A program made the translations under genes and the position numbers. DNA of 37,601 nt from Clostridia bacterium. GTDB taxonomy: Bacteria > Bacillota > Clostridia > Christensenellales > Borkfalkiaceae. A model generated the notes under the pieces. It did not search any database. It was not told where the DNA came from and saw nothing but the letters and a program-made list of their open reading frames with translations. Shown piece after piece: positions 7,074-33,730 of the stretch (positions are counted from its first letter, which is position 1; each line of letters begins with the position of its first letter). The DNA lies in the NCBI GenBank assembly GCA_017504795.1, contig JAFVQM010000001.1, positions 1 through 37,601 on the forward strand, given 5' to 3'.

Positions 7074-7829
7074 ATGAGTATAATACAAGAATTTTATGAC
7101 AATATGGCTTGCCACTACGACAAACTGTTTCTAGACTGGAATGCTACCACCAACGAACAAGCCCTAATACTACAAAATATTTTCAAAAAGTATAACTGTC
7201 AAGACGGTTCAAACGTACTTGATTGCGCTTGCGGAATAGGAACACAGGCAATAGGACTTGCTAAACTTGGATACAAAGTAACGGCATCTGATATAAGCGA
7301 CGGGGAACTTCACGAAGCAAGAATTAGAGCGCAAAATACTAGCGTTTACGTAAATTTCTTAAAGGCGGACTTTTGCAAACTTTCAGAAGTCTTTTCGGAA
7401 AAATTCGATATAGTTATCGCTATGGACAACGCGCTACCACATATGCTTACGCCAAACGATTTAAGTAAAGCGGTAAAAAGCATAGCAAATCAAATTAAAG
7501 ACGGTGGAATTTTTGTTGGCAGTATAAGAGATTACGACGCACTACTTCAAACCAAACCGCCCTACTCACCGCCATATATTCACAAAACAGAAAAAGGTAG
7601 GCGTATATCCTTTCAAACTTGGGTTTGGAATAAAGACCTATACAGGCTTTCACAATATATCATAGACGACGAAGAAAGTTTAACAATCAATAAATTTGAA
7701 TGTGAATACAGAGCAACTCGTCGCGAAGAATTAACGACTTTATTTTACGAAAACAATTGCAAAGAAGTAATATGGCTATTCCCAAAAGAAACGGGCTTTT
7801 ATCAACCTATTATTATTGCAAGAAAATAA
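7074..7829 (+). CDS. Class I SAM-dependent methyltransferase
   Basis: A 251-residue Rossmann-type methyltransferase. The SAM motif I is VLDCACGIGTQAIGLAKLG (residues 48-66), the acidic strand-2 end is TASDIS, and motif IV is FDIVIAMDNALPH. The overall pattern, including YDNMACHYDKLF at the N-terminus, is like the glycine/sarcosine N-methyltransferase-type group, but the C-terminal substrate-binding half does not let me name a substrate. It follows rsmE by 24 bases with only a weak ribosome site (AAGGT), suggesting translation from the same message. A terminator follows directly. Confidence 0.85.
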   Translation: MSIIQEFYDNMACHYDKLFLDWNATTNEQALILQNIFKKYNCQDGSNVLDCACGIGTQAIGLAKLGYKVTASDISDGELHEARIRAQNTSVYVNFLKADFCKLSEVFSEKFDIVIAMDNALPHMLTPNDLSKAVKSIANQIKDGGIFVGSIRDYDALLQTKPPYSPPYIHKTEKGRRISFQTWVWNKDLYRLSQYIIDDEESLTINKFECEYRATRREELTTLFYENNCKEVIWLFPKETGFYQPIIIARK

Positions 7830-19213: not shown

Positions 19214-20464
19214 TTAAAGCCCGATAAACGCACCGTTAGATTTTAATACGGTTTGTAGTTTTTTAACGTCTATCTCACGAACGGACGATTTATTTTTAAC
19301 CGCTAACCCTATTGCCGTGCCTGCGGCTTCGCCGATATTGCAAACTGTACTCATAACCCTATAAGACGCTTGCGCTCCATGGTCTGACGATATACACCTA
19401 CCCGCAACCAACATATTTTCTACCGTTTTTGGTATTAAACTGCGATATGGTATAGTGTAAAATTTACCTTCTGGAAAATAGTAATGGCTAGTTCCTGAAC
19501 CTTCTGGGTTATGAATATCTATATCGTAATTACAAGCGGTAATAGCATCTTCAAAAATTGTAAAATTCCTACAATCTTTTTCAGTTAAAACGTAATCTCC
19601 CACTATTTGACGACTTTCACGTACACCTATCTCGTGCGCGGTCATCATTAAAAAGGCATTTTCAAACCCGCAGGCATGCTCTTTCATAAAGTCAAAAATC
19701 TCTTTAACTTGCTTACGCGCAATAATTTCCGCTTGGGTTACTTCAACTGCGTCAATAGGGCTAAATTTAACAACTCGCGTAGTATTGAAATTCAACACGT
19801 TAGGTATAGGCGTTTTGAACACTAAAATATCTTCACGCGGGTTGATAAACTTTCCTTCGTTAAACGCCTTAGTATACGCCTTAGAAAGATTATCCCGCCC
19901 TTTCATAAAACGCTCAACGTCAACGTTGCCAACTCTGAAACAAAGTGTCATCGGTTGGCAAAGGTTATCCCCTTCACGACCTAAAACGGTAGGAACGCCT
20001 GCTAAACTTGCAAGCATAGCGTCACCTGTTGCATCAATAAAATAATCGCCTTCTACCGTTACTTGACCACCCTTAGTTGCAAATGTTACAGATTTAATTT
20101 TACCGTTAACGTTTTCAACGCTTGATAGGTATGAATTAAACATAATATCAACGTCTGCATCAATCATCATGTCGTTGATTAAAAACTTTAAGTCTTCTTC
20201 TAAAAAACCCATACCTTTTATAGAACCGCGCTCTTTAAGTTTTTTATGAATTTCAAGGAAAATACCTTGCGATAAAAGAAGATATTCTTCGCCTATTTTA
20301 GTGCAAAACGGCATAAACGGATTAACTAAACTATTGACCGACGCACCGCCAAAACAGTTAGATTTGTCAACAATTAAAGTTTTTGCGCCAGACCTTGCAG
20401 ATGCAAGCGCTGAACCTATCCCTGCAAAGCCACCGCCTACGACAACAACATCATACCTTTTCAT
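19214..20464 (-). CDS. FAD-dependent oxidoreductase (FAD_oxidored family)
   Basis: A 416-residue flavoprotein. It has the N-terminal dinucleotide fold VVVGGGFAGIGSALASARSG with VDK at the end of strand 2, FGGASVNS after it, IDATGDAML (about 145-153) and the C-terminal FAD loop ENMLVAGRCISSDHGAQAS. It belongs to the FAD-dependent oxidoreductase group that in Clostridia and Bacteroidetes is often found with carbohydrate genes; the electron acceptor and substrate are unknown. The start has AAAGGAG 7 bases upstream and lies 5 bases after aroQ, making it the last gene of the aromatic operon. Nothing in aromatic biosynthesis obviously needs it, so the link may be positional only. Confidence 0.85.
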   Translation of the reverse strand: MKRYDVVVVGGGFAGIGSALASARSGAKTLIVDKSNCFGGASVNSLVNPFMPFCTKIGEEYLLLSQGIFLEIHKKLKERGSIKGMGFLEEDLKFLINDMMIDADVDIMFNSYLSSVENVNGKIKSVTFATKGGQVTVEGDYFIDATGDAMLASLAGVPTVLGREGDNLCQPMTLCFRVGNVDVERFMKGRDNLSKAYTKAFNEGKFINPREDILVFKTPIPNVLNFNTTRVVKFSPIDAVEVTQAEIIARKQVKEIFDFMKEHACGFENAFLMMTAHEIGVRESRQIVGDYVLTEKDCRNFTIFEDAITACNYDIDIHNPEGSGTSHYYFPEGKFYTIPYRSLIPKTVENMLVAGRCISSDHGAQASYRVMSTVCNIGEAAGTAIGLAVKNKSSVREIDVKKLQTVLKSNGAFIGL

Positions 20465-20469
20465 AAAGA

Positions 20470-20898
20470 TTAACTCCTTTGCGCAAAGTATTCAACGGCT
20501 TCCTTATACCCGTCAAACCCCTTGCCTACTATCGTTTTTTCAGCGTACTTAGATACGTAACTTAACTTTCTAAAATCTTCTCTTCCGTTTATATCGGTTA
20601 AATGAACTTCAACCGTGAGTAGTCCTACCGATTTGAGCGCGTCAAGTATCGCTATGCTCGTGTGCGTATATGCACCTGCGTTTATGATAATACCGTCGTA
20701 CTTTTTATACGCTTGCTGTATAAGATACACTAATCTTCCTTCATAGTTTGACTGCAAAACGTCAACCTTAACGCCGTTATCTTTGCCCGCTTGCTTGATA
20801 AACTTTACAAGCGCTTTATAGTCCTTTTTGCCGTAAAGTTCGGGCTCGCGAACTCCTAACATATTAAGATTAGGTCCATTTAGAACGAGTAGTTTCAT
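20470..20898 (-). CDS. aroQ: Type II 3-dehydroquinate dehydratase
   Basis: A 142-residue type II enzyme that dehydrates 3-dehydroquinate to 3-dehydroshikimate in the shikimate pathway; members form dodecamers. The signature NGPNLNMLGVREPELYG (8-24) includes the catalytic Tyr22 loop; IINAGAYTHTSIAILDAL (about 71-88) and VEVHLTDINGREDFR (about 97-111) provide the other active-site residues. The usual His in 'SNHEG' is Tyr here (SNYEG), and 'HISN' is HLTD, so it is somewhat divergent. It overlaps the aroE-aroK gene by 29 bases, implying coupled translation. Confidence 0.93.
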   Translation of the reverse strand: MKLLVLNGPNLNMLGVREPELYGKKDYKALVKFIKQAGKDNGVKVDVLQSNYEGRLVYLIQQAYKKYDGIIINAGAYTHTSIAILDALKSVGLLTVEVHLTDINGREDFRKLSYVSKYAEKTIVGKGFDGYKEAVEYFAQRS

Positions 20899-22096
20899 AT
20901 CCTTTAATACTCTCCTTTATAGTAGTTTCTATATCGCCGTTATTGTCAATACAAATATCGGCGGTTTCGTATAGCGGTTTTCTCTCTTCAAAAAGTTTTT
21001 TAGCGCCTAGTTTTTGCGAAAGCGGTCTACCCTTGCTTTCAAGTAACGCTAAATCTCTTTTTATATATATCGTAACCGAATTAAGTGACAAAAGCCTTCT
21101 ATTTTCTTCGCTTAAAATTGCGCCACCGCCAAGCGATATCACCGCACCCGTTTTAAGTAGAACGGTTTTTAGCGTTTGAGTTTCAATTTTTCTAAACTCT
21201 AACTCACCGCTTTCGGTAATGATTTTAGACGGGGTTTTCCCAGTAATTTTCGTGATTTCATCATCTAAATCGACAAACTCTTTCCCTAAACTTTTTGCAA
21301 GTTTTTTACCTATCGTGGACTTGCCACACCCCGGCATACCCGTAAGCGCGATATTTAGTTTACTTTCGCTTATTTTAGAAATGATATTTTCAGTTTCCGT
21401 TTCGGTATGCGTCTTAGAAAGCCAAATATCTTGTGCTAAAAGCGCTTGTTCAACGAGCATAGGTAAGCCGTTTGAACTCTTTATATTAAGCCTATTTGCA
21501 GTTTTTATAAGCAAGGTTTTTTGCGGGTTGTAAATTAGGTCGAAAACGAATTCTAAACTTGAAAACTTTTGCAAATCTACGGGGCAATCGTCAATTAGCG
21601 GATACATACCTACGGGAGTTGCGTTTATAATTACTTGCGCGTTTATATCGTAGCAGTTTTGGTAATTTATTTCGCCCGCTCGACTAACGAAAAAGTATTT
21701 TGCGCCCTGCTTTTTACAAACGTATTCTACCGCCTTACTAGCACCGCCCGTACCTAAAATTAAAACCGTTTTACCGTTTAACGACACACCTTTTCGTTTA
21801 AGGGTATAAAGTATTCCGCCAACGTCGGTATTATACCCTAAAAGTTTGCCGTTTTTATTAAGAACGGTATTTACTGCGCCCATTTCTTTGGCTTCAACGG
21901 AAACTTCGTGCAAAAAGGGCAAAACGTCCTTTTTATACGGAATAGTTACGTTATAGCCGTGATACGACGAGTTTTCAATAAAATCTCCAACACCGCAACG
22001 AACGATTTCTTTTAAGGTATAATCAAGCCCGCAAAGGCTATGAATTTCTTTTGAGTAACTGTGCGAAAGTTTTTCGCCTATCAAACAAAATTTCAT
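20870..22096 (-). CDS. aroE-aroK: Bifunctional shikimate dehydrogenase-shikimate kinase (AroE-AroK fusion)
   Basis: A 408-residue fusion of two consecutive-step enzymes. Residues 1 to about 240 are AroE (NADPH reduction of 3-dehydroshikimate): SHSYSKEIH, NVTIPYKK with the catalytic Lys, GAVNTV, GYNTD, the nucleotide loop GTGGASKAV and INATPVGMYP. After a Thr/Glu-rich linker (THTETETEN), residues about 247-408 are AroK (ATP-dependent phosphorylation of shikimate): Walker A GMPGCGKST, DLDDEI, GELEFRKIE, SLGGGAIL and the lid KGRPL. All catalytic motifs of both halves are intact. Starts with a 4-base ATGA overlap with pheA. Confidence 0.95.
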   Translation of the reverse strand: MKFCLIGEKLSHSYSKEIHSLCGLDYTLKEIVRCGVGDFIENSSYHGYNVTIPYKKDVLPFLHEVSVEAKEMGAVNTVLNKNGKLLGYNTDVGGILYTLKRKGVSLNGKTVLILGTGGASKAVEYVCKKQGAKYFFVSRAGEINYQNCYDINAQVIINATPVGMYPLIDDCPVDLQKFSSLEFVFDLIYNPQKTLLIKTANRLNIKSSNGLPMLVEQALLAQDIWLSKTHTETETENIISKISESKLNIALTGMPGCGKSTIGKKLAKSLGKEFVDLDDEITKITGKTPSKIITESGELEFRKIETQTLKTVLLKTGAVISLGGGAILSEENRRLLSLNSVTIYIKRDLALLESKGRPLSQKLGAKKLFEERKPLYETADICIDNNGDIETTIKESIKGYETTRSKWT

Positions 22097-23235
22097 ACGT
22101 TTTCTTTATAAGTTCCAAGAAGAACGAATTTATCCGAACCGTTGTCGAGTTCGGCGATTAAGTTTCTTACTTGCGGGTCTAAGATATCGCCTTCGAAATC
22201 GAAATAGAACATAAACTCGAAATCCGAGCCTTCTATCGGGCGCGACTCAATTTTAGTAAGGTTGAGCCCGAAAGCGTAGAAACGGCTAACTATTTTATTG
22301 AGCGAGCCGGGGGTATGAGCCAAACTCGTCATAATACTGATTTTATCAGCCCCTTTATAAACGCGCAAATCTTTGGTTATACAAATAAAGCGAGTAAAAT
22401 TCTTTTCGCTATCTTGAACTCTCGGCTCTAAAATTTTAAGATTATACGCGTTAGCACACTCTTTCGAGCAAAGTACCGCCACCGTTTTATCGTCACCTTC
22501 GGCAACTTTTTTAGCGCCAACTGCGGTGTTTTCAACGCTTTCCGTTTTAACGTTTAACTTCTTTATATACTCAGAGCATTGTGTAAGCGCTTGGGGGTGA
22601 GAAATTACAGTTTTAATATCTTTAAGTTCAGTTCCGCATTTTACGGCTAAGCAATGGTCAATTTGAATTTTTACGCTTTTTACGATATGGAAATCGTATT
22701 TTTTCATAAGGTCGTAAACTTCCGAAACCGAGCCTGCGGTACTGTTTTCAATAGGAAGTACTCCGTATTCGCAAAGCCCCTTTTCAACCGCGTTGAAAAC
22801 GCCTTCAAAGGTTTTGAAATAAGTAATATCCGATATAGGAAAGATTTTTTCAGCCGCTTTACCGCTGTTTGCACCGTACACGCCTTGGCACGCAACAGTC
22901 CCGTCGACAGGGAATTCTTTAAGCGGATTTTTAATAATTTCGTCAAGTTCTTTTTTCACGGGTGAAACGGTTTCAACGAACTTGCTTTGATAGGCTTTGC
23001 TAGCGTAAAAAATAGTATCGTATAACTCTTTTACGTAAAGCCTAATATCTTCTGGGCATTTTTGCGAAAGCCTATAAACGATTTCTTTTTCCCTTTTTCC
23101 GTCGTGAACTGCTTTTTCTGTTTTCGCTTTTATAACGCCAACTTGTTTAGAAAGCGCCATACGCTCTTTGTAAAGTTCGATAAGTTGATCGTCAATTTGG
23201 TCAATTTTTTCTCTTATTTCAATTAAATTATTCAT
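22093..23235 (-). CDS. pheA: Chorismate mutase-prephenate dehydratase (P-protein)
   Basis: A 380-residue bifunctional enzyme that turns chorismate into prephenate and then phenylpyruvate, committing to Phe. Residues 1 to about 90 are the AroQ-class mutase helix bundle (IREKIDQIDDQLIELYKERM). About 110-285 are the dehydratase with LPIENSTAGSV, ISHPQAL and the NFTRF active-site motif. The C-terminus is an ACT domain, SLAHTPGSLNKIVSRFYAFG followed by ESRPI, which in the family binds Phe for feedback inhibition. The mutase precedes the dehydratase, as in proteobacterial P-proteins. Overlaps aroC by 4 bases. Confidence 0.95.
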   Translation of the reverse strand: MNNLIEIREKIDQIDDQLIELYKERMALSKQVGVIKAKTEKAVHDGKREKEIVYRLSQKCPEDIRLYVKELYDTIFYASKAYQSKFVETVSPVKKELDEIIKNPLKEFPVDGTVACQGVYGANSGKAAEKIFPISDITYFKTFEGVFNAVEKGLCEYGVLPIENSTAGSVSEVYDLMKKYDFHIVKSVKIQIDHCLAVKCGTELKDIKTVISHPQALTQCSEYIKKLNVKTESVENTAVGAKKVAEGDDKTVAVLCSKECANAYNLKILEPRVQDSEKNFTRFICITKDLRVYKGADKISIMTSLAHTPGSLNKIVSRFYAFGLNLTKIESRPIEGSDFEFMFYFDFEGDILDPQVRNLIAELDNGSDKFVLLGTYKENV

Positions 23236-24284
23236 AATACCTCGTCAAGTAATGCTATTGCAACCGCACTTTCTATGCACGGAACTGCTCTTACTGCAAC
23301 GCAAGCGTCGTGCCTGCCTTTAATTTTTATTTTTACGTTTTCCTTATTTACAAGGTCTATCGTGTTTTGCTCTATCTGTATAGACGGCGTTGGTTTTAAC
23401 GCAACGCGCATCGTTAAGTTAAACCCGTTAGATATACCGCCGTTTATTCCGCCGTTATTGTTAGTTTTGAGTTTTACCGTATCCCCGTCGTAATAAAGTT
23501 CGTCATTAACCACGCTACCACGACTTTTTGCCATTTCAAACCCCGAGCCAAACTCAACGCCTTTAACCGCTGGAACTGAAAATAGTAGCGACGAAAGTTT
23601 ACCTTCTAACCCTTCGAATAAGTTATCTCCAACGCCTGCGGGCATACCGCATACCACCGTTTCGATAACACCGCCAACGCTATCGCCTTGCAATCTTGCA
23701 CTCTCAATTTCTAAAAGCATTTCGTCCTTTTTATCAATGGACGGAAAACCGCAAGTTAACGATACGATTTTATCGTAATCGATATCCCCGTCACGATACG
23801 ACGCGCCTTGAACGCCACCCACCGCTTGAAGATAACTTGCAATTTTTACGCCTTTTTTTTCAAGGTACTGTTTGCAAAGCCCACCTAGTACGCAGTAAAC
23901 GGCAGTTAGCCTTGCCGAAAATCTACCGCCACCTGAAAAGTCAAGCGCACCGTCTTTTAAGTGCCAGGCATAATCGGCGTGTGACGGCCTAGGTTTACCG
24001 TATAAATCGCTATAATCTTTACTTTTTACGTTGTTGTTTTTGATAATTACTTCAAAATCACCGTTAATAACACCGTCTTTTACGTTTATAAATTCTGGCT
24101 CGTCCGCCTCTATTCTCGGTGTTGAAAAGGAAGAACTACTTGCCTTTCGCCTTGCTAAAAACTTTGTAAGTTCATCTTTATCAAACGAAAAGTTAGGAAA
24201 GCCTTTTACCTTTAACTTCATTTCGGGAGAGTGAGATTCGCCAACTATTTCAATAATTAAGTTTTTACCTTGTAGTTTCGACAT
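23232..24284 (-). CDS. aroC: Chorismate synthase (divergent)
   Basis: A 350-residue chorismate synthase: FMN-dependent conversion of EPSP to chorismate. The family framework is clear (GESHSPEM, KPRPSHADYAWHLK, LDFSGGGRFSARLT, GRHDACVAVRAVPCIESAVA), but conserved positions differ: GESHG is GESHS, RPGHAD is RPSHAD, and the usual TTGTPI segment after the 'SGVF' loop is shortened to NGDFEVIIKN. It is shorter than most (about 360-390). The two catalytic His of the family, in GESH and RPxHAD, are kept, so I expect activity. The first 20 bases overlap aroA. Confidence 0.92.
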   Translation of the reverse strand: MSKLQGKNLIIEIVGESHSPEMKLKVKGFPNFSFDKDELTKFLARRKASSSSFSTPRIEADEPEFINVKDGVINGDFEVIIKNNNVKSKDYSDLYGKPRPSHADYAWHLKDGALDFSGGGRFSARLTAVYCVLGGLCKQYLEKKGVKIASYLQAVGGVQGASYRDGDIDYDKIVSLTCGFPSIDKKDEMLLEIESARLQGDSVGGVIETVVCGMPAGVGDNLFEGLEGKLSSLLFSVPAVKGVEFGSGFEMAKSRGSVVNDELYYDGDTVKLKTNNNGGINGGISNGFNLTMRVALKPTPSIQIEQNTIDLVNKENVKIKIKGRHDACVAVRAVPCIESAVAIALLDEVL

Positions 24285-25521
24285 TGACGTTTCCTCCCAC
24301 CTTTTTATAGTCTTTGACGAAATCGGGATAAGATTTAGTTATCGCCTCGCCACCGAGCACCAAACTATCTTGACTTGCGTTTCCTGCCATTATAACCGCA
24401 GACATTACCGTTCTATGGTCGTTACCGCCGTTTATTTGAGCGCCCGTAGGCTTTCCCCCAACGATTTCAATCGAGTTATTTATATATTTTGCAGTTATAT
24501 TACACGCGGTTAACCCGTCTATTACCGCTTTTATTCTATCACTTTCTTTAAGGCGCAAGCGGTCAACCCCTAAAATGCGGGTAGTTCCACTAGCATACGA
24601 CGCTACTACCGAAACTATTTGAACTAGATCTGGAACGTCTTCCATATCAACGGTTATTCCGCTTAGTCTTTTAGCGTTTACGGTTACCGAATTTTTATTT
24701 TCAATAACTTCCGCGCCAAAAGATTTTAGTATATCTATTATCTTTTTATCGCCTTGAACGGAACTTAAATTAAGCCCGTTTACCGTTACTCTACCACCTA
24801 TCGCGCCTGCTGACAGTAAAAACGACGCGCCCGACCAGTCGCCTTCGACCGTGAACTCAGTTTTCGTGGCATTGTAACCGCCTTTTATTTTGTAGCCGTT
24901 TTGGGTTTTTGTAAACTCTACGCCAAAGTCTTTTAGTACGGATAGAGTTATATCAACGTACGGCTGTGAAACGAGCGTTCCGTCTACTATAATTTCGCTC
25001 TCCCCGTCAACGTAAGACAGTGCAAGAAGTAGCCCCGTGATATACTGAGAACTAATCCCCCCGTCTATATAATATTTACCGCTACTTAGTTTTCCGTTTA
25101 CCGTTAGCCCTATAATTTCCGCGCCGTTTTCGTTAAGCGCGGTGGTCAGTTCCTTAATAGGTCTTTCAAGTAGCCTTTTAGCACCCGTAAATTCAGCCTT
25201 TACGCCAAGCGCCGATACTACTGGAATTAAAAACCTTAGCGAAGAACCGCTTTCCTTACAGTCGATAACGACTTTTTCTTTTGGAAGTTCCCCGCGTTTT
25301 ATAACCACCTTACCGTCTATTACTTTTACGCTTGCGCCAAGCGTTTTTAGGGCGTTTAAGGTAACGGTAGCGTCAACTGACGAGCCTACGTTAAAAACGT
25401 TAATTTCTTTCCCCGATAAAAACGCCGAAATTAAAATTCTATGCGCAAACGACTTAGATGACGGAGCGTTTATCTCGCCTTTTATTATAGACGGTTTTAC
25501 TCTAATATCAAAGCGCTCCAT
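24265..25521 (-). CDS. aroA: 3-phosphoshikimate 1-carboxyvinyltransferase (EPSP synthase)
   Basis: A 418-residue EPSP synthase, joining shikimate-3-phosphate and PEP. Motifs: INAPSSKSFAHRILI near residue 20 (Lys binds both substrates), SGSSLRFLIP near 90, KRLLERPI, GDWSGASF, VPDLVQIVSV (catalytic Asp), RLRLKESDR and the C-terminal GGNDHRTVMS. The ATG at 25521 shares its A with the aroB TGA stop and has GGGAG 6 bases upstream; a GTG one codon earlier is a less likely start. The Gly-rich loop before the RPI motif carries KRLLERPIKE rather than the classical NAGTAMRP arrangement, which is now SGSSLRF, typical of class II-like enzymes. Confidence 0.95.
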   Translation of the reverse strand: MERFDIRVKPSIIKGEINAPSSKSFAHRILISAFLSGKEINVFNVGSSVDATVTLNALKTLGASVKVIDGKVVIKRGELPKEKVVIDCKESGSSLRFLIPVVSALGVKAEFTGAKRLLERPIKELTTALNENGAEIIGLTVNGKLSSGKYYIDGGISSQYITGLLLALSYVDGESEIIVDGTLVSQPYVDITLSVLKDFGVEFTKTQNGYKIKGGYNATKTEFTVEGDWSGASFLLSAGAIGGRVTVNGLNLSSVQGDKKIIDILKSFGAEVIENKNSVTVNAKRLSGITVDMEDVPDLVQIVSVVASYASGTTRILGVDRLRLKESDRIKAVIDGLTACNITAKYINNSIEIVGGKPTGAQINGGNDHRTVMSAVIMAGNASQDSLVLGGEAITKSYPDFVKDYKKVGGNVNVETTR

Positions 25522-26540
25522 CACAAACTCCCTATAACGTCGCTAAATAAAACTTTTTTAATAAGCGGTTTTGCAAAGCCCTTAGAAAAAACGAAATTCA
25601 CGGTGTCACCGTCCGCCTTTTTATCTGATTTCATAACGGATAAAATTTCTTCTTTTGAAAAATCTACGCTAAGTTCAACGCCCGAAAGTTTAAGAAATTC
25701 TATCGCCCTATTTTTATCTTCTTCACTCATAAAACCGAGCCTATAAGACGATTTTACCGCATAATACATACCTTTAATAACGCACTCACCGTGCGATAAA
25801 GAATAGTTATATAACTTTTCAATAGCGTGCCCTACGGTGTGACCGAAGTTAAGTAGCATTCTGTCACCGCTTTCTAGTTCGTCACGCTCGACGATATCTC
25901 TTTTTATCTCTAACGATTTTACTATTAAATCAAAATAATCAATATTTTCTATATCGCTTGGGGTAATACGGTTGTCGATAAACGCGTACTTCATTATCTC
26001 GCCAAGTCCACTAGTTAACTCGCGTTTATTAAGGGTTTTAATAAGGTTGACGTTTATATACACAGCGTCAGGCTGAAAGAACGTACCAAGTAGGTTTTTG
26101 CCCGCATCTAAATCAATACCCGTTTTACCGCCTACGGAACTGTCTACCATAGAAAGAAGTGACGTTGGAATTGCAACGTATCCTATACCGCGCATATACG
26201 TTGACGCGATAAACGCCGATAAATCACCAACTACGCCACCGCCAAGCCCTATCACGGTTGACTTTCTTGAAAGCCCTGACTTTGCAAGCGCGTTTACAAG
26301 GCTAATATAGGTTTGGGCGTTTTTACTTTCTTCACCCGCTTTTATTACGAATTTATATACCTTTTTACCTTCAAGTAGACTTTCTATCTCGCTATAATAT
26401 AAAGGTTCTACGTTATCGTCGGTAATAACGGCTACGGTATCTCCTTTTATCAATGGAAGAACTTGGGTTTTGAAACTTTCAAAACCGTAATCAACCGTTA
26501 TTTCGTATTTTTTTGATGCGTTTACTTTTATTGTTTTCAT
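25521..26540 (-). CDS. aroB: 3-dehydroquinate synthase
   Basis: A 339-residue NAD- and metal-dependent enzyme that cyclises DAHP to 3-dehydroquinate. Visible motifs: GLGGGVVGDLSAFIASTYMRG (NAD binding, about 98-118), IPTSLLSMVDSSVGGKTGID (about 123-142), GEIMKYAFI, and LLNFGHTVGHAIE with the metal-binding His residues; a further His comes from SLSHGECV. Full length. Overlaps tyrA by 4 bases (ATGA). Confidence 0.96.
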   Translation of the reverse strand: MKTIKVNASKKYEITVDYGFESFKTQVLPLIKGDTVAVITDDNVEPLYYSEIESLLEGKKVYKFVIKAGEESKNAQTYISLVNALAKSGLSRKSTVIGLGGGVVGDLSAFIASTYMRGIGYVAIPTSLLSMVDSSVGGKTGIDLDAGKNLLGTFFQPDAVYINVNLIKTLNKRELTSGLGEIMKYAFIDNRITPSDIENIDYFDLIVKSLEIKRDIVERDELESGDRMLLNFGHTVGHAIEKLYNYSLSHGECVIKGMYYAVKSSYRLGFMSEEDKNRAIEFLKLSGVELSVDFSKEEILSVMKSDKKADGDTVNFVFSKGFAKPLIKKVLFSDVIGSL

Positions 26541-27382
26541 TTTTTGTTTTTCGTATCTATTAAAAGTTTTCTCTCGTTGCCTTCGCTAAGTAGTTTTTCA
26601 AGTTCTACTCTATCGCCGTTTTTTAAGGCAACACTATATTTTTGTAAATTTTCAATAAACTCGTCAAGTTCTTTTGACAAGTTGTCCCCGTTTTCTATCA
26701 TAAGTTCAGACCACATCTTAGGGTTAAGCCTTGCTACGCGCGTTAAGTCTTTGTAACTTCCCGCCGAATAGCCAAAGTGTTCGCTTGCGATTTCGTTTTT
26801 GATAAACGCGTTTGAAACTATATGGCAAAGTTGTGACGTAAAGGCTATTGCCCTATCGTGATACTCAGGCGTTGTAATAACTACTTCTGAAAAACCTAGC
26901 GTTAGGTAAAACGCTTTAATTTTTTCAAGAGTAAAAATATCAGCGTTGACGTTAGTTAGTATCATTGACGCTTTTTCAAAAAGCCCCGAAACCGATCTAT
27001 CTATCCCCGAAAACTCTCTACCCGCCATCGGGTGACCGCCAACGAAGATAAGGTTTGGATATTTTTTAGAAAGTTCTTTCATTTCCGCCATAGTTTTGCG
27101 CTTGATACCGCAAAAGTCGGTTATCACCGCCCCGTCTTTAAGAAGGGGTAAAAACCTTTCTATCGACGATAAGAACGAACTAGGATATAGCGACACGATA
27201 AGCATATCAATATCTTTTGCGGTAGTTTCGTCAAGCGGAGCGTTAATAGCGCCGAGCATATCCGCCTTTAACATAACCGTTTCTTGATTATCGTAGCCGA
27301 AAACTTCGTGCCCACCTATTTTTTTAAGGGTTTTGCCAAGGCTACCGCCCATAAGCCCTAACCCGATAATTCCTATTTTCAT
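26537..27382 (-). CDS. tyrA: Prephenate dehydrogenase
   Basis: A 281-residue NAD(P)-dependent enzyme that oxidatively decarboxylates prephenate to 4-hydroxyphenylpyruvate, the Tyr branch. The N-terminal fingerprint is IGIIGLGLMGGSLGKTLKK; GGHPMAGREFSGIDRS (about 117-132) contains the catalytic His, and the helical C-terminal half starts with SQLCHIVSNAF. No ACT domain follows, so Tyr feedback through an ACT domain is not expected. Overlaps aroF by 4 bases. Confidence 0.94.
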   Translation of the reverse strand: MKIGIIGLGLMGGSLGKTLKKIGGHEVFGYDNQETVMLKADMLGAINAPLDETTAKDIDMLIVSLYPSSFLSSIERFLPLLKDGAVITDFCGIKRKTMAEMKELSKKYPNLIFVGGHPMAGREFSGIDRSVSGLFEKASMILTNVNADIFTLEKIKAFYLTLGFSEVVITTPEYHDRAIAFTSQLCHIVSNAFIKNEIASEHFGYSAGSYKDLTRVARLNPKMWSELMIENGDNLSKELDEFIENLQKYSVALKNGDRVELEKLLSEGNERKLLIDTKNKK

Positions 27383-28395
27383 AAATCTCTGTGCTTATCG
27401 ACAAGCGGAAGCATAACGTCAATACTTTTAACGATATCGTCAAACTGGTCGGGGGTTATCGACTGCGCCCCGTCACAAAGTGCGTTTTTGGGGTCGTTAT
27501 GAACTTCTATCATAAGACCGTGCGCCCCTGAGCCAACTGACGCAAGCGACAACGGTTTTACAAGCCTTGATAGCCCCGACGCGTGCGACGGATCAACCAC
27601 AACCGGTAAATGCGTAAGTTCTTTAAGAAGGGGAATTGCCGATAAGTCAAGCGTGTTTCTCGTGTACGGCTCGAAAGTTCTTATACCCCTTTCACATAAA
27701 ATGATATCTTTACCACCTTCACTCATAATGTATTCGGCACTCATAAGCCACTCTTGAATAGTGTTTGCCAAACCGCGCTTTAATAAAACGGGTTTTTTAG
27801 TTTTACCAACTTCTTTCAAGAGTTCAAAGTTTTGCATATCGCGCGCACCTATTTGAATAACGTCAACGTCCTTAAACTGGTCGATATGGTTAACGCTCAT
27901 AATCTCGGTAACGATAGGCATACCCGTTTCTTCTTTGGCTTTAAGAAGAAGTTGTAGCCCCGCCTCTCTTAGACCTTGGAAAGCATACGGCGAAGTTCTA
28001 GGCTTATACGCACCACCGCGAAGCACGGTTGCGCCCGCTTTTTTAACCGCCCAAGCAACGTCAATTATCTGTTTTTCAGTTTCAACCGAACACGGCCCTG
28101 CTATAATTTGGAAGTTATCTCCACCGAATTTATGACCGCCTATATCTACGATAGTATCGTCGGGGTGGAATTTACGGTTTGCACACTTAAAAGGCTCTTG
28201 AATACGCTTGACGTTTTCAACGATATCAAGCGACCTAACAAGGTCAATATCGATTTTACTAGTATCGCCTACTAGCCCTAAAATGGTCGAGTGTTGACCG
28301 TTACTTATATCGACTTCTAAGCCCTGACCTTTAATCCATTTAATTAAGTTGTTAATTTGTTTTTCTTCGTGTTCCTTTTTAACGATAATAATCAT
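27379..28395 (-). CDS. aroF: 3-deoxy-7-phosphoheptulonate (DAHP) synthase
   Basis: A 338-residue class I beta-type DAHP synthase that condenses PEP and erythrose-4-phosphate, the first pathway step. Residues 1 to about 70 are a ferredoxin-like regulatory domain (MIIIVKKEHEEKQINNLIKW), the feedback module in Thermotoga-type enzymes. The barrel follows: IIAGPCSVE, RGGAYKPRTSPYAFQG, VTEIMS, IGARDMQN, LLKRG, CERGIRTFE, VDPSHASG and GAHGLMIEVH. AGAAGGTG precedes the ATG. First gene of the operon, directly behind the attenuator, so the whole pathway is controlled there. Confidence 0.96.
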   Translation of the reverse strand: MIIIVKKEHEEKQINNLIKWIKGQGLEVDISNGQHSTILGLVGDTSKIDIDLVRSLDIVENVKRIQEPFKCANRKFHPDDTIVDIGGHKFGGDNFQIIAGPCSVETEKQIIDVAWAVKKAGATVLRGGAYKPRTSPYAFQGLREAGLQLLLKAKEETGMPIVTEIMSVNHIDQFKDVDVIQIGARDMQNFELLKEVGKTKKPVLLKRGLANTIQEWLMSAEYIMSEGGKDIILCERGIRTFEPYTRNTLDLSAIPLLKELTHLPVVVDPSHASGLSRLVKPLSLASVGSGAHGLMIEVHNDPKNALCDGAQSITPDQFDDIVKSIDVMLPLVDKHRDL

Positions 28396-28412: not shown

Positions 28413-28438
28413 AAAAAAACCGAACTAAAAAGTTCGGT
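28413..28438 (-). terminator. Attenuator terminator before aroF
   Basis: On the minus strand, the 8-bp stem ACCGAACT / AGTTCGGT with loop TTTT leads into T7. It lies 18 bases before the aroF start and after the leader peptide. Its first arm overlaps the antiterminator. Confidence 0.92.
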
Positions 28439-28485
28439 CATTTTCAATAAAAAATCCTTTTTTAAGTACGCAAAAAAATAACCGA
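28434..28485 (-). promoter_or_regulatory. Antiterminator of the aromatic operon
   Basis: UCGGUUAUUUU (28485-28475) can pair with AAAAUGACCGA (28444-28434) over 11 bp with one G-U pair. The second arm includes five bases of the terminator's first arm, so the two hairpins exclude each other. The first arm starts 2 bases after the leader stop codon, where a ribosome on that codon would cover it. Confidence 0.8.
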
Positions 28486-28487
28486 TA

Positions 28488-28547
28488 TTAAAAATATGGC
28501 TTCATAAAGTAATATGCAAAATAAAAGGCAAATACGTTATTTTTCAT
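28488..28547 (-). CDS. Phe/Tyr-rich leader peptide of the aromatic operon
   Basis: A 19-codon reading frame, MKNNVFAFYFAYYFMKPYF, with TAGGAG 7 bases before the ATG and a TAA stop. Nine of 19 residues are aromatic (5 Phe, 4 Tyr) and none is Trp, matching the end products of the operon. The position between a consensus promoter and a terminator with a competing antiterminator marks it as a transcription-attenuation leader. When Phe- or Tyr-tRNA is short, the ribosome stalls within the run and leaves the antiterminator free; when it reaches the stop codon it covers the first arm and the terminator forms. The sequence is observed; the mechanism is inferred from pheL- and trpL-type leaders. Confidence 0.88.
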   Translation of the reverse strand: MKNNVFAFYFAYYFMKPYF

Positions 28548-28569
28548 TTTTTTGCTCCTAACACAATAA

Positions 28570-28598
28570 ATTTTACGCTTTTAGATTTTGTTTGTCAA
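28570..28598 (-). promoter_or_regulatory. Promoter of the aromatic operon
   Basis: On the minus strand: perfect -35 TTGACA (28598-28593), 17-bp spacer, -10 TAAAAT (28575-28570). The start point near 28563 leaves about 16 nt before the leader peptide ATG. Confidence 0.92.
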
Positions 28599-28655: not shown

Positions 28656-28679
28656 CAATTATAATTTTTGGAGAACGAT

Positions 28680-29861
28680 ATGATAAACGAAAAAATGTAC
28701 GCGCTAGGCTCTACGCGTTCTAAAATTAGAGAACTTTTCGAATACGGTAAAGAACTTTCTAAAAAAATAGGTGCTGAAAACGTTTTCGACTATACGCTTG
28801 GTAATCCTAGCGTTCCCTGCCCTGAAAAAGTTACTAAAACTATTATTAGCGAAGTTCAAAACCCGTCTATTCACGGCTATACTTCCGCCCAAGGTGATTT
28901 GGGTGCTAGAAAGGCTATTTGCGACTATAACTTTAATCGCTACGGCTTTTCTCTTTCGCCCGACCTTACTTATTTAACTTGCGGTGCTGCCGCTGGGCTT
29001 GCAATAACCTTGCGCGCGCTTATCTCGTCGCCTAGCGATAAGGTTTTAACGTTTGCACCCTTTTTCCCAGAGTACAAGGTGTTTACCGAAAACGCAGGCG
29101 GTAGTTTGATATACGCAAAGTGTGACGAAAGTACTTTCGATATAGATTTTAACGCCTTTGAACTAGCAATCAACCCCGACGTGCAAGCCGTTATTATAAA
29201 TAGCCCCAACAACCCGTCCGGCACGGTGTATAGTGAAGATAGTATAGTTAAACTTTCTAAAATTCTAAGTGCTAAGCAAACTGAGTACGGGCACGCTATT
29301 TATCTAATTTGTGACGAACCGTATCGTGAAATTTTGTTCGACGGTGCAGTTTGCCCGTTTATTCCAAAGTATTATGATAATACGGTAGTTTGTTATTCTT
29401 ACAGCAAAGCGCTTTCTATCCCCGGTGAAAGAATAGGTTACGTATCCGTTTCCAAAAAGGCGGAAAACGCTCAAAAACTCTACCTTGCTATTGCTGGCGC
29501 TGGAAGAAGTTTAGGTTACGTGTGCGCCCCGTCGCTTTTTCAAAAGGTTATTGAAAAGTGTGTTGATAGCGTTTCAGACTCAACGGTATATAAAGACAAT
29601 CGCGATTTATTAGTTTCAAACCTTACGCGTTTAGGTTTTACTTGCGTTAACCCAAAAGGCGCGTTCTACGTGTTTATGAAGTCACCCGTACCTAGCGCTA
29701 ACGAGTTTTGTGACGTTTGTAAAACCTACGGGCTACTCGTAGTCCCGTCCGACTCGTTTGGAATAGATGGCTACGTAAGGCTTGCAACCTGCGTTAGTAC
29801 CGACCTTATTAAACGGTCTATCCCCACGCTTGAAAAAATTGCAAAACTATATAACTTATAA
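28680..29861 (+). CDS. Class I/II pyridoxal-phosphate aminotransferase (aromatic/aspartate type)
   Basis: A 393-residue fold-type I aminotransferase. The PLP lysine is in YSYSKALSIPGERIGY (about residues 243-258); NSPNNPSG (about 178-185), CDEPY and the C-terminal RLATC (substrate carboxylate Arg) are conserved. GGAG lies 6 bases before the ATG at 28680; an in-frame TTG at 28668 overlaps the ribosome site and is unlikely. Transcribed divergently from the aromatic operon, it is a good candidate for amination of phenylpyruvate and 4-hydroxyphenylpyruvate, the only steps to Phe and Tyr not encoded by the operon. That specificity is inferred from position. Confidence 0.88.
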   Translation: MINEKMYALGSTRSKIRELFEYGKELSKKIGAENVFDYTLGNPSVPCPEKVTKTIISEVQNPSIHGYTSAQGDLGARKAICDYNFNRYGFSLSPDLTYLTCGAAAGLAITLRALISSPSDKVLTFAPFFPEYKVFTENAGGSLIYAKCDESTFDIDFNAFELAINPDVQAVIINSPNNPSGTVYSEDSIVKLSKILSAKQTEYGHAIYLICDEPYREILFDGAVCPFIPKYYDNTVVCYSYSKALSIPGERIGYVSVSKKAENAQKLYLAIAGAGRSLGYVCAPSLFQKVIEKCVDSVSDSTVYKDNRDLLVSNLTRLGFTCVNPKGAFYVFMKSPVPSANEFCDVCKTYGLLVVPSDSFGIDGYVRLATCVSTDLIKRSIPTLEKIAKLYNL

Positions 29862-31246: not shown

Positions 31247-33730
31247 TTATAAGCCTTTCTTCGAGCGATCAATCTTCTCAATATCAGTAAAGTTATTGGT
31301 AGGAACGTGACCTGGAAGTGGCATAATTTTTTCGTGGAGCGCGTCGATAATCCAGTCGGGTTGAGGGAAGAAACTCTTTTCAAGTTCGAAAGCAGGAGTA
31401 ATCCAGTTTCTTGAACCAACGACAACGGCAGGACCGTCAAGATAATCAAAGCACATTTCGGTAATGTTAGACGCCATATCTCTCATAACAGAGTTTCTTT
31501 CGCAAGCATCACCAACGAATAATACCTTACCAGTCTTCTTAACCGATTCAACAACTTTTTCGTAGTTGAACGGAACGATAGATCTAGCATCGATAACTTC
31601 CGCAGATACACCGTATTTTTCTTGTAAGATTTTTGCTGCTTCAAGCGCTCTATAGAGAACTGCACCAATAGTTACGATAGTAACGTCACTACCCTTTCTC
31701 TTGATATCGGGTTCGCCGAACGGAATTTCGTAGTGACCTTCTGGTACACCGCCTTCCATAAATTCTTCGCCGATACCGTAAATTCTTTGAGATTCAAAGA
31801 ATACAACGGGGTCAGTGCCTTCGAGTGCGCTAGTCATTAAGCCCTTAGCGTCAGCCGGGGTTGACGGGAATACGACTTTAAGACCGGGGATATGCGAGCA
31901 AAGCGCAGTCCAGTCTTGCGAGTGTTGAGCACCGTACTTAGAACCAACCGATACACGAAGTACGATAGGCATTTTAAGAATACCTGCCGACATTGCTTGC
32001 CATTTAGCCATTTGGTTAAAGATTTCGTCACCAGCGCAACCGATAAAGTCAGCGTACATAAGTTCAACTATTGCTCTACCACCGCACATAGCGTAACCAA
32101 CTGCCGAGCCAACGATAGCCGATTCAGAGATAGGCGAGTTGAAGAATCTGTGATAAGGAACGGCTTCGGTCATCTTCTTGTAAACGCCGAACGCACCACC
32201 CCAGTCACGGTTATCTTCACCGTACGCGATAAGCGTAGGATCGTCGTAGAACTTATCGATAATAGGTTCAAACAAGCCGTCGCAAATGTTGTACATTTTC
32301 ATCTTAGAAACAGGCTTGCCGTTCTTATCGGTAGCGGTACGAGTTTTGCCCTTAATTTCTTTAACACGGGGGCATTCTTCCTTAGGCATAAGCATTTCTG
32401 CTTCGCGAGTAGGATCTAAACTCTTAACCTTTTGGTTAGAGAACATAATCGAAGAAATAGCGTCAGGCTCTTTGTTAAGGTCCATACGCGGAGAAACTTC
32501 ATCGTTGATAGCAAGTTTCATAACTTCGGTCATGCGGTTAGTGATTTCTTCGTGAATTTTAAGGAAATCTTCTTCTTTCGCAACGCCACCCATAATGAGT
32601 TTGGTCTTGAATTTTAAGATAGGATCTGCATTCTTCCATGCTTCGATTTCCTCAGCGGTACGATAGGTAGACGAGTCAGACGGAGAGTGACCAGATACAC
32701 GGTAGGTAACCACGTCTAAAAGCGCAGGGCCTTTGCCTTGTAAAAGGAGTTCTTTCTTTCTCTTAACAGCGTCAGCCACTGCTAAGGGGTCATAACCGTT
32801 TACGCGTTCAGCATGCATTTGGCTGGGGTTGAAACCTGCGCCAAGTCTTGCAGCCATATCAAAGCCCATGGTTTCACCACGAGTTTGACCGCCCATACCG
32901 TAGTGGTTGTTGAATACGTTGAAAAGTATCGGCATACCACCGTCTTCAAACTTACCGTCCATACCCCAAAGTTTGGTAATTTGGTCCATAGACGCAAAGT
33001 TCATTGATTCTAAAACCGGGCCTCTACCCGTAGCACCGTCACCAAAGTTAGATACTACGATACCGGGTTTGTGGTTAGAACGCTTATAAAGTGCAGCACC
33101 GAGTGCGATAGGACCGCTCGCGCCTACGATAGCGTTGTTGGGCATTAAGCCGAAAGGTATGAAGAAAGCGTGCATCGAACCGCCAAGACCGCGGTTGAAA
33201 CCGGTTTTTCTTGCAAAGATTTCAGCAAGTGCGCCGTATAAAAGGAAGTTGATAGCAAGTTCTTTAATAGAGCCTGCTTTCATATGTTTTTCAACTACTG
33301 ATAAAACTGCACCGTCAAGGAACTCTTTCATAATGTCGTAAAGTTCTTTGTCGTCAAGTTTTTCGATAGAAGATAAACCTTTTGCGAGAATTTCGCCGTG
33401 GCTACGGTGAGAACCGAAAGAAAGGTCGTTAATATCTAAGTGATAAGCCTCGCCTACTGCCGACGCTTCTTGACCGATAGAAAGGTGAGCGGGACCGGGG
33501 TTGTTGTATTTAACGCCGTTGTATTCGCTTTTAACCTTAACTTCGTTAAGCATGGTTTCGAACTCACGAATAATAGCCATATCGCGGTATACGCGGAGCA
33601 TATCTTCTTTCGAGTAGATTTTTAATTCTTCTTTAATGGTTTTGTTGTATTGACATACGGGGATGTCTTCAAAGTGGATGTAACCCGCATCAAACGCCTT
33701 GGCGGGATCAACGTACTGACTCTTTGGCAT
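31247..33730 (-). CDS. 2-oxoacid (pyruvate-type) dehydrogenase E1, fused alpha and beta subunits
   Basis: An 827-residue thiamine-diphosphate enzyme. The alpha part (to about 470) has the ThDP-Mg motif [16 protein letters not shown] ending in FNNHYG, with an insertion ([13 protein letters not shown]) between GDG and NN. The beta part (about 490-827) has [20 protein letters not shown] with the catalytic-type Glu, YADFIG and [13 protein letters not shown]. It decarboxylates a 2-oxoacid and acetylates or acylates the E2 lipoyl group. Pyruvate is the likely substrate, but an acetoin or branched-chain substrate is not excluded. AAAGGAG precedes the ATG. Last gene of the E2-E3-E1 operon, an order opposite to the usual E1-E2-E3. 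Confidence 0.92.

Follow-up and report, generated by a model that had tools for sequence, protein, structure and literature searches.

Phe/Tyr leader peptides and a probable ribosome-mediated attenuator upstream of aroF-headed operons in Clostridia

In E. coli, pheL/pheA, pheM/pheST and trpL are attenuators which respond to the position of a ribosome on a short leader that is rich in the regulated amino acid. The control of amino acid genes in Gram positive bacteria is usually told as a matter of T-boxes and protein control. An earlier note on the locus presented here had stated that attenuation of this kind is best known in enterobacteria, which holds, and that Gram positive aromatic genes are usually described with other types of control, to which we add that Gram positive peptide leaders do have precedents (PMC2965389, PMC5794164, PMC8632094).

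The precedents are the following. The uORFC-13-1 motif comprises 24 sequences, found only in Acholeplasma and in unassigned environmental sequences and always before aroF. It is an upstream open reading frame with promoter, ribosome binding site and terminator, for which attenuation was proposed, and it has at least one Phe codon in a U run, Tyr codons being unmentioned in its description (PMC8632094). The S. aureus ilv-leu operon has a Leu-rich leader, with attenuation supported by mutants (PMC5794164), and in Bacillus, His leader peptides were predicted before hisS*/hisZ (PMC2965389). For the B. cereus group, T-box control of Tyr synthesis is described in a paper whose main text does not contain the term aroF (PMC2494555). 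A Phe/Tyr leader attenuator in Clostridia was not found among the open-licence papers listed by our searches.

The leader region and its operon

The locus belongs to a Clostridia bacterium (GCA_017504795.1, contig JAFVQM010000001.1), whose genome is about 84% complete; the whole stretch of 37,601 nt that was analysed is called the window. The leader and its operon are on the minus strand. A sigma-70-type promoter of the form TTGACA-17-TAAAAT (28570..28598, TTGACA at 28598-28593 and TAAAAT at 28575-28570) has 11 of 12 consensus matches; with four promoter-like sites in the 500-bp region against 2.6 in shuffles, the call is plausible, not proven. Transcription probably starts at about 28563-28564. 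A Shine-Dalgarno sequence, AGGAG (28555..28559, by reading), precedes the leader frame MKNNVFAFYFAYYFMKPYF (28488..28547), which was identified by reading and by its conservation and has 19 codons, with the ATG from 28547 and the stop codon TAA at 28490-28488. Nine of its codons encode Phe or Tyr (6, 8, 9, 10, 12, 13, 14, 18 and 19).

Four strands define the possible folds. Strand 1, GCAAAAAAAUGA (28544..28555), lies over the ribosome site and the start codon and may serve as a protector or lock. Strand 2 (28470..28485) has two possible partners: UCGGUUAUUUU at 28485-28475 is the 5' arm of the antiterminator and pairs with strand 3, and 28481-28470 can alternatively pair with strand 1 in a 12-bp helix that closes the Shine-Dalgarno sequence and the start codon. 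Strand 3, AAAAUGACCGA (28434..28444), is the 3' arm of the antiterminator, and its part 28439-28434 is also within the 5' arm of the terminator. The antiterminator comprises 11 pairs including one G-U (28485-28475 with 28444-28434) and begins 2 nt past the leader stop codon. Strands 3 and 4 form the intrinsic terminator (28413..28439), with a stem of 9 pairs (28439-28418), a loop of 4 nt and a T run to 28413. It sits between the leader frame and the first structural gene, 17 nt from aroF, and three terminator-like sites were found in the region compared to 0.3 in shuffles. Promoter, frame and aromatic codons, all claimed in the earlier note, are thereby confirmed to the base by reading; the same is true of its 11-bp antiterminator competing with the terminator ahead of aroF.

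The run of genes behind the leader starts with aroF (27379..28395, ATG at 28395), encoding a type I-beta DAHP synthase with an NCBIfam match above the cut-off. Residues 1-325 of AroF match the Thermotoga maritima enzyme (1rzm and 3pg9, E 2.7e-103), whose N-terminal domain we take to bind Phe/Tyr; if this binding holds for the AroF of the window, the enzyme and the leader would both respond to Phe and Tyr. The run continues with tyrA for prephenate dehydrogenase (26537..27382; best NCBIfam match of 157 bits, below the cut-off), aroB (25521..26540), aroA (24265..25524) and aroC (23232..24284), these three with NCBIfam matches above the cut-off. Next are pheA for chorismate mutase-prephenate dehydratase (22093..23235; strong matches below curated cut-offs), an aroE-aroK fusion of 408 aa (20870..22096; dehydrogenase at about 1-240 and kinase at about 246-405, strong matches below the cut-offs), aroQ for type II 3-dehydroquinate dehydratase (20470..20898; NCBIfam above cut-off) and finally a gene for an FAD-binding protein (19214..20464; weak partial matches only). 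Each start overlaps the preceding stop, except for the last gene, which follows after a 5-nt gap, and the run is presumably transcribed as a single transcript. No trp gene is found within it, and the match between a leader for Phe and Tyr and an operon with tyrA and pheA, as claimed before, is borne out by the gene run and the NCBIfam assignments.

Two further observations concern the neighbourhood. A divergent gene for a PLP aminotransferase (NF005305, above cut-off; window 28668-29861) has its promoter region facing the leader promoter and is a possible pathway partner. By reading, an 827-aa frame (window 31247-33730) resembles fused alpha and beta subunits of 2-oxoacid dehydrogenase E1, with E2, E3 and lipoate ligase nearby.

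Aromatic leaders upstream of other aroF genes

AroF was detected in 61 of 101 relatives and in 218 of 293 class genomes, and the species collection contributed the best 80 of at least 595 candidate loci. We took 158 upstream regions, of which 150 were at least 240 nt long and non-redundant by a loose k-mer rule. By source title the loci are nearly all clostridial, with a few from Treponema, Bacteroidaceae, Verrucomicrobia, Planctomycetaceae and Erysipelotrichaceae that are perhaps misbinned. Each frame with a length of 8-45 codons within the final 300 nt upstream was scored by the maximum number of F/Y/W in any 14 residues.

For the window's own 300-nt upstream region, 8 of 2000 dinucleotide shuffles attain 9 aromatic residues in 14. 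A score of at least 7 is reached by 94 of the 150 upstream regions, compared to a mean of 2.38 and a maximum of 8 over 50 dinucleotide shuffles, and the reverse strand gives 10 of 150; 42 of the 150 reach at least 9 (shuffle mean 0.04). Trp in these upstream frames is below its shuffle (0.56 vs 0.81) and the means for L, K, I+N, H, C and S are near one shuffle. The 95 leaders of score at least 7, read with 400-450 nt upstream, contain 462 F, 394 Y and 7 W residues, and 76 of them are preceded by a Shine-Dalgarno-like sequence. By these counts, the presence of an aromatic-rich leader before aroF is beyond chance.

We also sampled 108 loci of the class, namely 28 of the 30 best class matches plus 80 hand-picked from 120 other listed matches; the sample leans to one per genus, includes some genomes twice, is non-random, and its first 28 loci overlap the 150 upstream regions. 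Here, 65 of 108 loci score at least 7 and 72 at least 6, some of the sixes probably by chance. Among the 96 loci without a close upstream frame, 64 score at least 7 and 70 at least 6, and 10 of the 36 loci scoring below 6 sit behind another gene. The layout of the window is real and has many counterparts in the class. We read 27 loci of the window's own family, and 22 of them have a leader of score at least 6; it is absent in L016, L018, L020 and L023 as well as in L030, where the contig ends and only 161 nt upstream are available. Named strains with leaders are Oscillibacter valericigenes and Angelakisella massiliensis, and no leader was found upstream of aroF in Clostridium magnum, Desulfosporosinus and Faecalibacterium sp. 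An122.

In the window and in six congeners, codons 6-14 of the leader follow the pattern [FY]x[F][Y][FY][AG]YYF. Pairwise comparison of these seven congeneric leaders gave 58 synonymous differences, 16 F/Y exchanges and 93 other codon changes, a pattern which indicates that the constraint falls on the aromatic run and not on the whole peptide.

A model, R1, was built from the G000-G007 and G014 loci, and the only structure it retains is the 8-bp terminator stem. It was based on the MAFFT alignment A2, which misplaces L010, L032 and L080 and was excluded from pair counts. Searches used strict filters, with 73 candidates scored per genome. R1 finds one copy each in G000-G007, ending 10-19 nt before aroF, as expected by construction since these loci built the model; no second copy was found there at E 0.1 or better, and G014 shows a weak second match. 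In G075, a genome outside the model, a copy lies before aroF (E 1.1e-4). In the congener G008, an element with the leader MLNNQKFFYYAYFYFKPY (E 2.6e-13; L280, G008:C74 near 7111-7269) is located directly before tyrA-aroB, named by likeness to the window proteins, and aroF was not detected in this genome. From the G008 and G075 finds, the element seems to be tied to the head of the operon. The weaker matches G009:C21, G068:C1, G014:C11, G008:C3 and G011:C11 are not followed by an aromatic gene, as judged by reading, and were rejected as chance. Other weak matches are G067:C12, G072:C12, G008:C242, G024:C11 and G073:C42:441-611, the last (E 0.076) lying about 300 nt before the aroF of its genome in an upstream region without an aromatic frame.

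Terminator, antiterminator and the ribosome-site helix across loci

By strict rules, a terminator follows the aromatic run in 87 of 113 loci of score at least 6, compared to a mean of 3.1 and a maximum of 5 in shuffles. A relaxed finder recovers it in 94 of the 113 (shuffles 17.4), and in the remaining 19 it is absent even by these rules. Upstream comparison of orthologues for an aromatic-rich frame had been set beforehand as the test of the attenuator, and both frame and terminator are widely conserved. Ten loci (L046, L062, L067, L071, L073, L076, L095, L098, L101 and L132) have a strong F/Y leader and no terminator match by the relaxed rules; such leaders could reflect translational control or an interrupted stem.

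The antiterminator is less uniform. Its energy against shuffles, calculated for the 87 loci singly, has a mean z of -1.17, with p <=0.05 in 25 of 87. The strongest are those of the window's clade (L001-L009, L025, L079, L080 and others), with z down to -5.3, and O. valericigenes (L117) has a clear leader and terminator with an antiterminator that does not stand out (p 0.96). Twenty loci hand-picked from the clade, from which L019, L021 and L026 with weak antiterminators were omitted, were compared strand by strand, with the strand 2 search limited to the post-stop stretch and the arm position taken from a search starting where the F/Y run ends. By the latter search, the arm starts 0-7 nt past the stop codon in 19 of the 20. 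Strands 2, 3 and 4 vary jointly between clade species, with 19 distinct strand 3 words in the 20 loci. Strands 2/3/4 are TCGGTT/GACCGA/TCGGTT in L001, ATACGGTTATTTT/AAGATGACCGTAT/ATACGGTCATTTT in L079, CGGTCGTT/AGCGACCG/CGGTCGCT in L080, GGCTCC/GGAGCT/AGTTCC in L024 and GTGTGGT/ACCGCAC/GTGCGGT in L032. The earlier note had asked for the two alternative hairpins in relatives, and within the clade of the window the competing antiterminator is preserved through compensatory changes.

We ran a swap test, in which a strand of one species is paired with another strand of a different species in 5000 permutations, ignoring kinship. In the clade (n=23), a group picked after the per-locus antiterminator results were known, native pairing was reached by 0 of 5000 permutations for 3:4, 0 for 2:3 and 1 for 1:2, compared to 1400 for the control 1:3. 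Thinning to 18 loci gave 0, 0 and 7, with 313 and 377 of 5000 for the controls 1:3 and 2:4. For the other 64 loci (group B), 3:4 again gave 0 of 5000; 2:3 gave 125 with a post-stop strand 2 and 0 if strand 2 may fall in the coding tail; and 1:2 gave 4 and 0 by the two strand 2 definitions, the control 1:3 giving 2106 and 4031. Finally, 38 held-out loci, left from 80 later loci after removal of 33 of score below 7, eight without a strict terminator and one repeat, gave 0 for 3:4, 0 for 1:2 and 297 of 5000 for 2:3 (controls 1243 and 4725). On this covariation, the terminator and also a pairing of strands 1 and 2 seem to be general, and the antiterminator appears firm in the clade and is likely, not firm, elsewhere.

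In many class members strand 2 resembles GUGAUUUGUGCUGCA. It is post-stop in L058, L099, L105, L118 and L124; in L068, L064, L072 and L077 it is read in frame as SDLCCK, SVLCCK, AELCCK or SDLCCR. Conservation seems to fall on the GUGAUUUGUGCUGCA-like RNA stretch, the position of the stop codon shifting around it.

For strand 1, codons 2-4 were the first candidate and were displaced by the SD-AUG pairing. Taken singly, 6 of 30 loci have a 1:2 helix at p 0.05. In clade swaps against the post-stop stretch, SD-AUG gave 0 of 5000 (thinned 9), codons 3-9 gave 6 (thinned 48), codons 10 to the end 3690 and positions -50..-16 4784. SD-AUG as the sole strand 1 fails in 57 thinned class leaders, where codons 3-10 and the run pair too (0 of 5000 each) and SD-AUG with the run does no better than swaps (4992 of 5000). 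A lock on the Shine-Dalgarno sequence and start codon of the leader is a good guess in the clade, going by these pairings, and unproven beyond it.

Mechanism, alternatives and known systems

The observed layout is real, widespread and of a known kind, and we regard it as highly probable that it controls the Phe/Tyr operon by ribosome-mediated attenuation of transcription. The ribosome steps and the response to Phe and Tyr would be as follows. RNA polymerase would start near 28563, with a ribosome trailing on the leader frame. With ample charged tRNA-Phe and tRNA-Tyr, the ribosome would get to the stop codon and its footprint would hide strand 2; strand 3 would then be free to pair with strand 4 and transcription would stop ahead of aroF. 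If either tRNA is uncharged, the ribosome would halt within codons 6-14 and leave strand 2 exposed, whose pairing with strand 3 would block the terminator and allow the operon to be transcribed. After the ribosome leaves, pairing of strand 2 with the leader's ribosome site and start codon may close the leader.

Folding of the full-length leader RNA with ribosomes always lets the terminator win. Because such equilibrium folding is uninformative, we used a transcript that ends at strand 3 (28434, 28432 or 28428), with the start at 28564 and the ribosome footprints assumed. In this model, the probability of 2:3 is 0.93-0.95 for a ribosome on codon 6, 0.54-0.66 for one on codon 9, 0.81-0.88 on codon 12 and 0.96-0.97 on codon 14, and it falls to 0.00 for a ribosome on the stop codon. 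The model thus supports the masking geometry that had been proposed, in which a stalled ribosome would free strand 2 and a terminating one would cover it. The part-made transcript also favours the antiterminator when no ribosome is present (0.88-0.92), so the off state hinges on translation and on kinetics outside the model; the model predicts read-through of a leader that is not translated, unless pairing of 1 with 2 comes first.

The operon might instead be governed by a T-box or metabolite riboswitch, the short frame being accidental. T-boxes are indeed common: 60 of the 61 relatives searched have matches, and the window's own genome has six, none of them at this operon. Three of the six are above the cut-off, all on contig C7, and the other three precede a trpB-like gene, cysE-cysS and thrS (named by reading translations). 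The one upstream of the trpB-like gene (L162, G000:C29:49295-49539) has 84.3 bits against a cut-off of 93 bits, and the gene itself matches TIGR00263 far under its cut-off. In O. valericigenes, a T-box lies about 7 kb upstream of aroF (L117:2979-3220). At the site itself, however, no Rfam family matches the window at the gathering threshold, none is credible for the leader at E up to 10, and T-box RF00230 has no match there. Moreover, at about 150 nt the leader is short, the widely kept feature upstream of aroF is the aromatic-rich frame, and a crude pattern found a T-box-like sequence in one of the 36 class loci of score below 6. We consider such control extremely improbable here.

The leader could also be an arrest peptide on which, as in TnaC, the ribosome is stalled by the nascent chain or by free Phe or Tyr, and with strand 2 directly past the stop codon a ribosome stalled at termination would act there too. 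Known arrest peptides keep residues at fixed positions, whereas in these leaders F and Y interchange and length and sequence vary widely with the aromatic content persisting. In the folding model, moreover, a stall at the stop codon would hide strand 2 and end transcription. This makes an arrest peptide very unlikely. We also consider very unlikely a role of the frame in translation or decay, in which ribosome sites would be governed by the 1:2 helix and by translation of the leader and the terminator would be just a leaky insulator. That proposal is favoured by the covariation of SD-AUG with strand 2 (clade 1/5000 and 0/5000, held-out loci 0/5000) and by the 19 of 113 leader loci lacking a recognised terminator. 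It is disfavoured by the window's terminator, which is on the operon strand between leader and aroF and has strand 3 in common with a competitor that covaries.

Transcription attenuation is therefore the reading we keep. A T-box match before the trpB-like gene in the same genome suggests that Trp and Phe/Tyr may have different sensors. Within a single genome, T-box matches below the cut-off precede the trpB-like gene, cysE-cysS and thrS, and the Phe/Tyr genes have a peptide leader, which makes the choice of sensor a testable question; most sampled class aroF loci have a leader although T-boxes abound in relatives. Tentatively, and with slightly less than even confidence, we propose that Phe/Tyr peptide-leader attenuation is common and perhaps ancestral for aroF-headed Phe/Tyr operons across Clostridia, in the role that T-boxes have elsewhere, with strand 2 serving as both antiterminator and lock. 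The collected upstream regions can serve as a first basis for an Rfam-type family.

By its description, uORFC-13-1 likewise has a uORF with Phe codons, promoter, ribosome binding site and terminator before aroF, but it is restricted to Acholeplasma and environmental sequences, and Tyr codons are unmentioned there. The S. aureus ilv-leu leader is also a case of peptide-leader attenuation in a Firmicute, serving branched-chain amino acids in Bacilli. The Bacillus His leaders are predicted peptide leaders in Firmicutes where T-boxes are usual, and differ in concerning histidine and synthetase-type genes in Bacilli. With pheL, pheM and trpL the window leader has in common the short frame rich in the regulated amino acids, the antiterminator and terminator with a common strand, and the decisive position of the ribosome. 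Unlike these, it is not matched by the Rfam families of that kind, it has its strand 1 over the ribosome site of the leader and not in the control codons, and it would sense Phe and Tyr jointly at the head of a whole shikimate-to-Phe/Tyr run.
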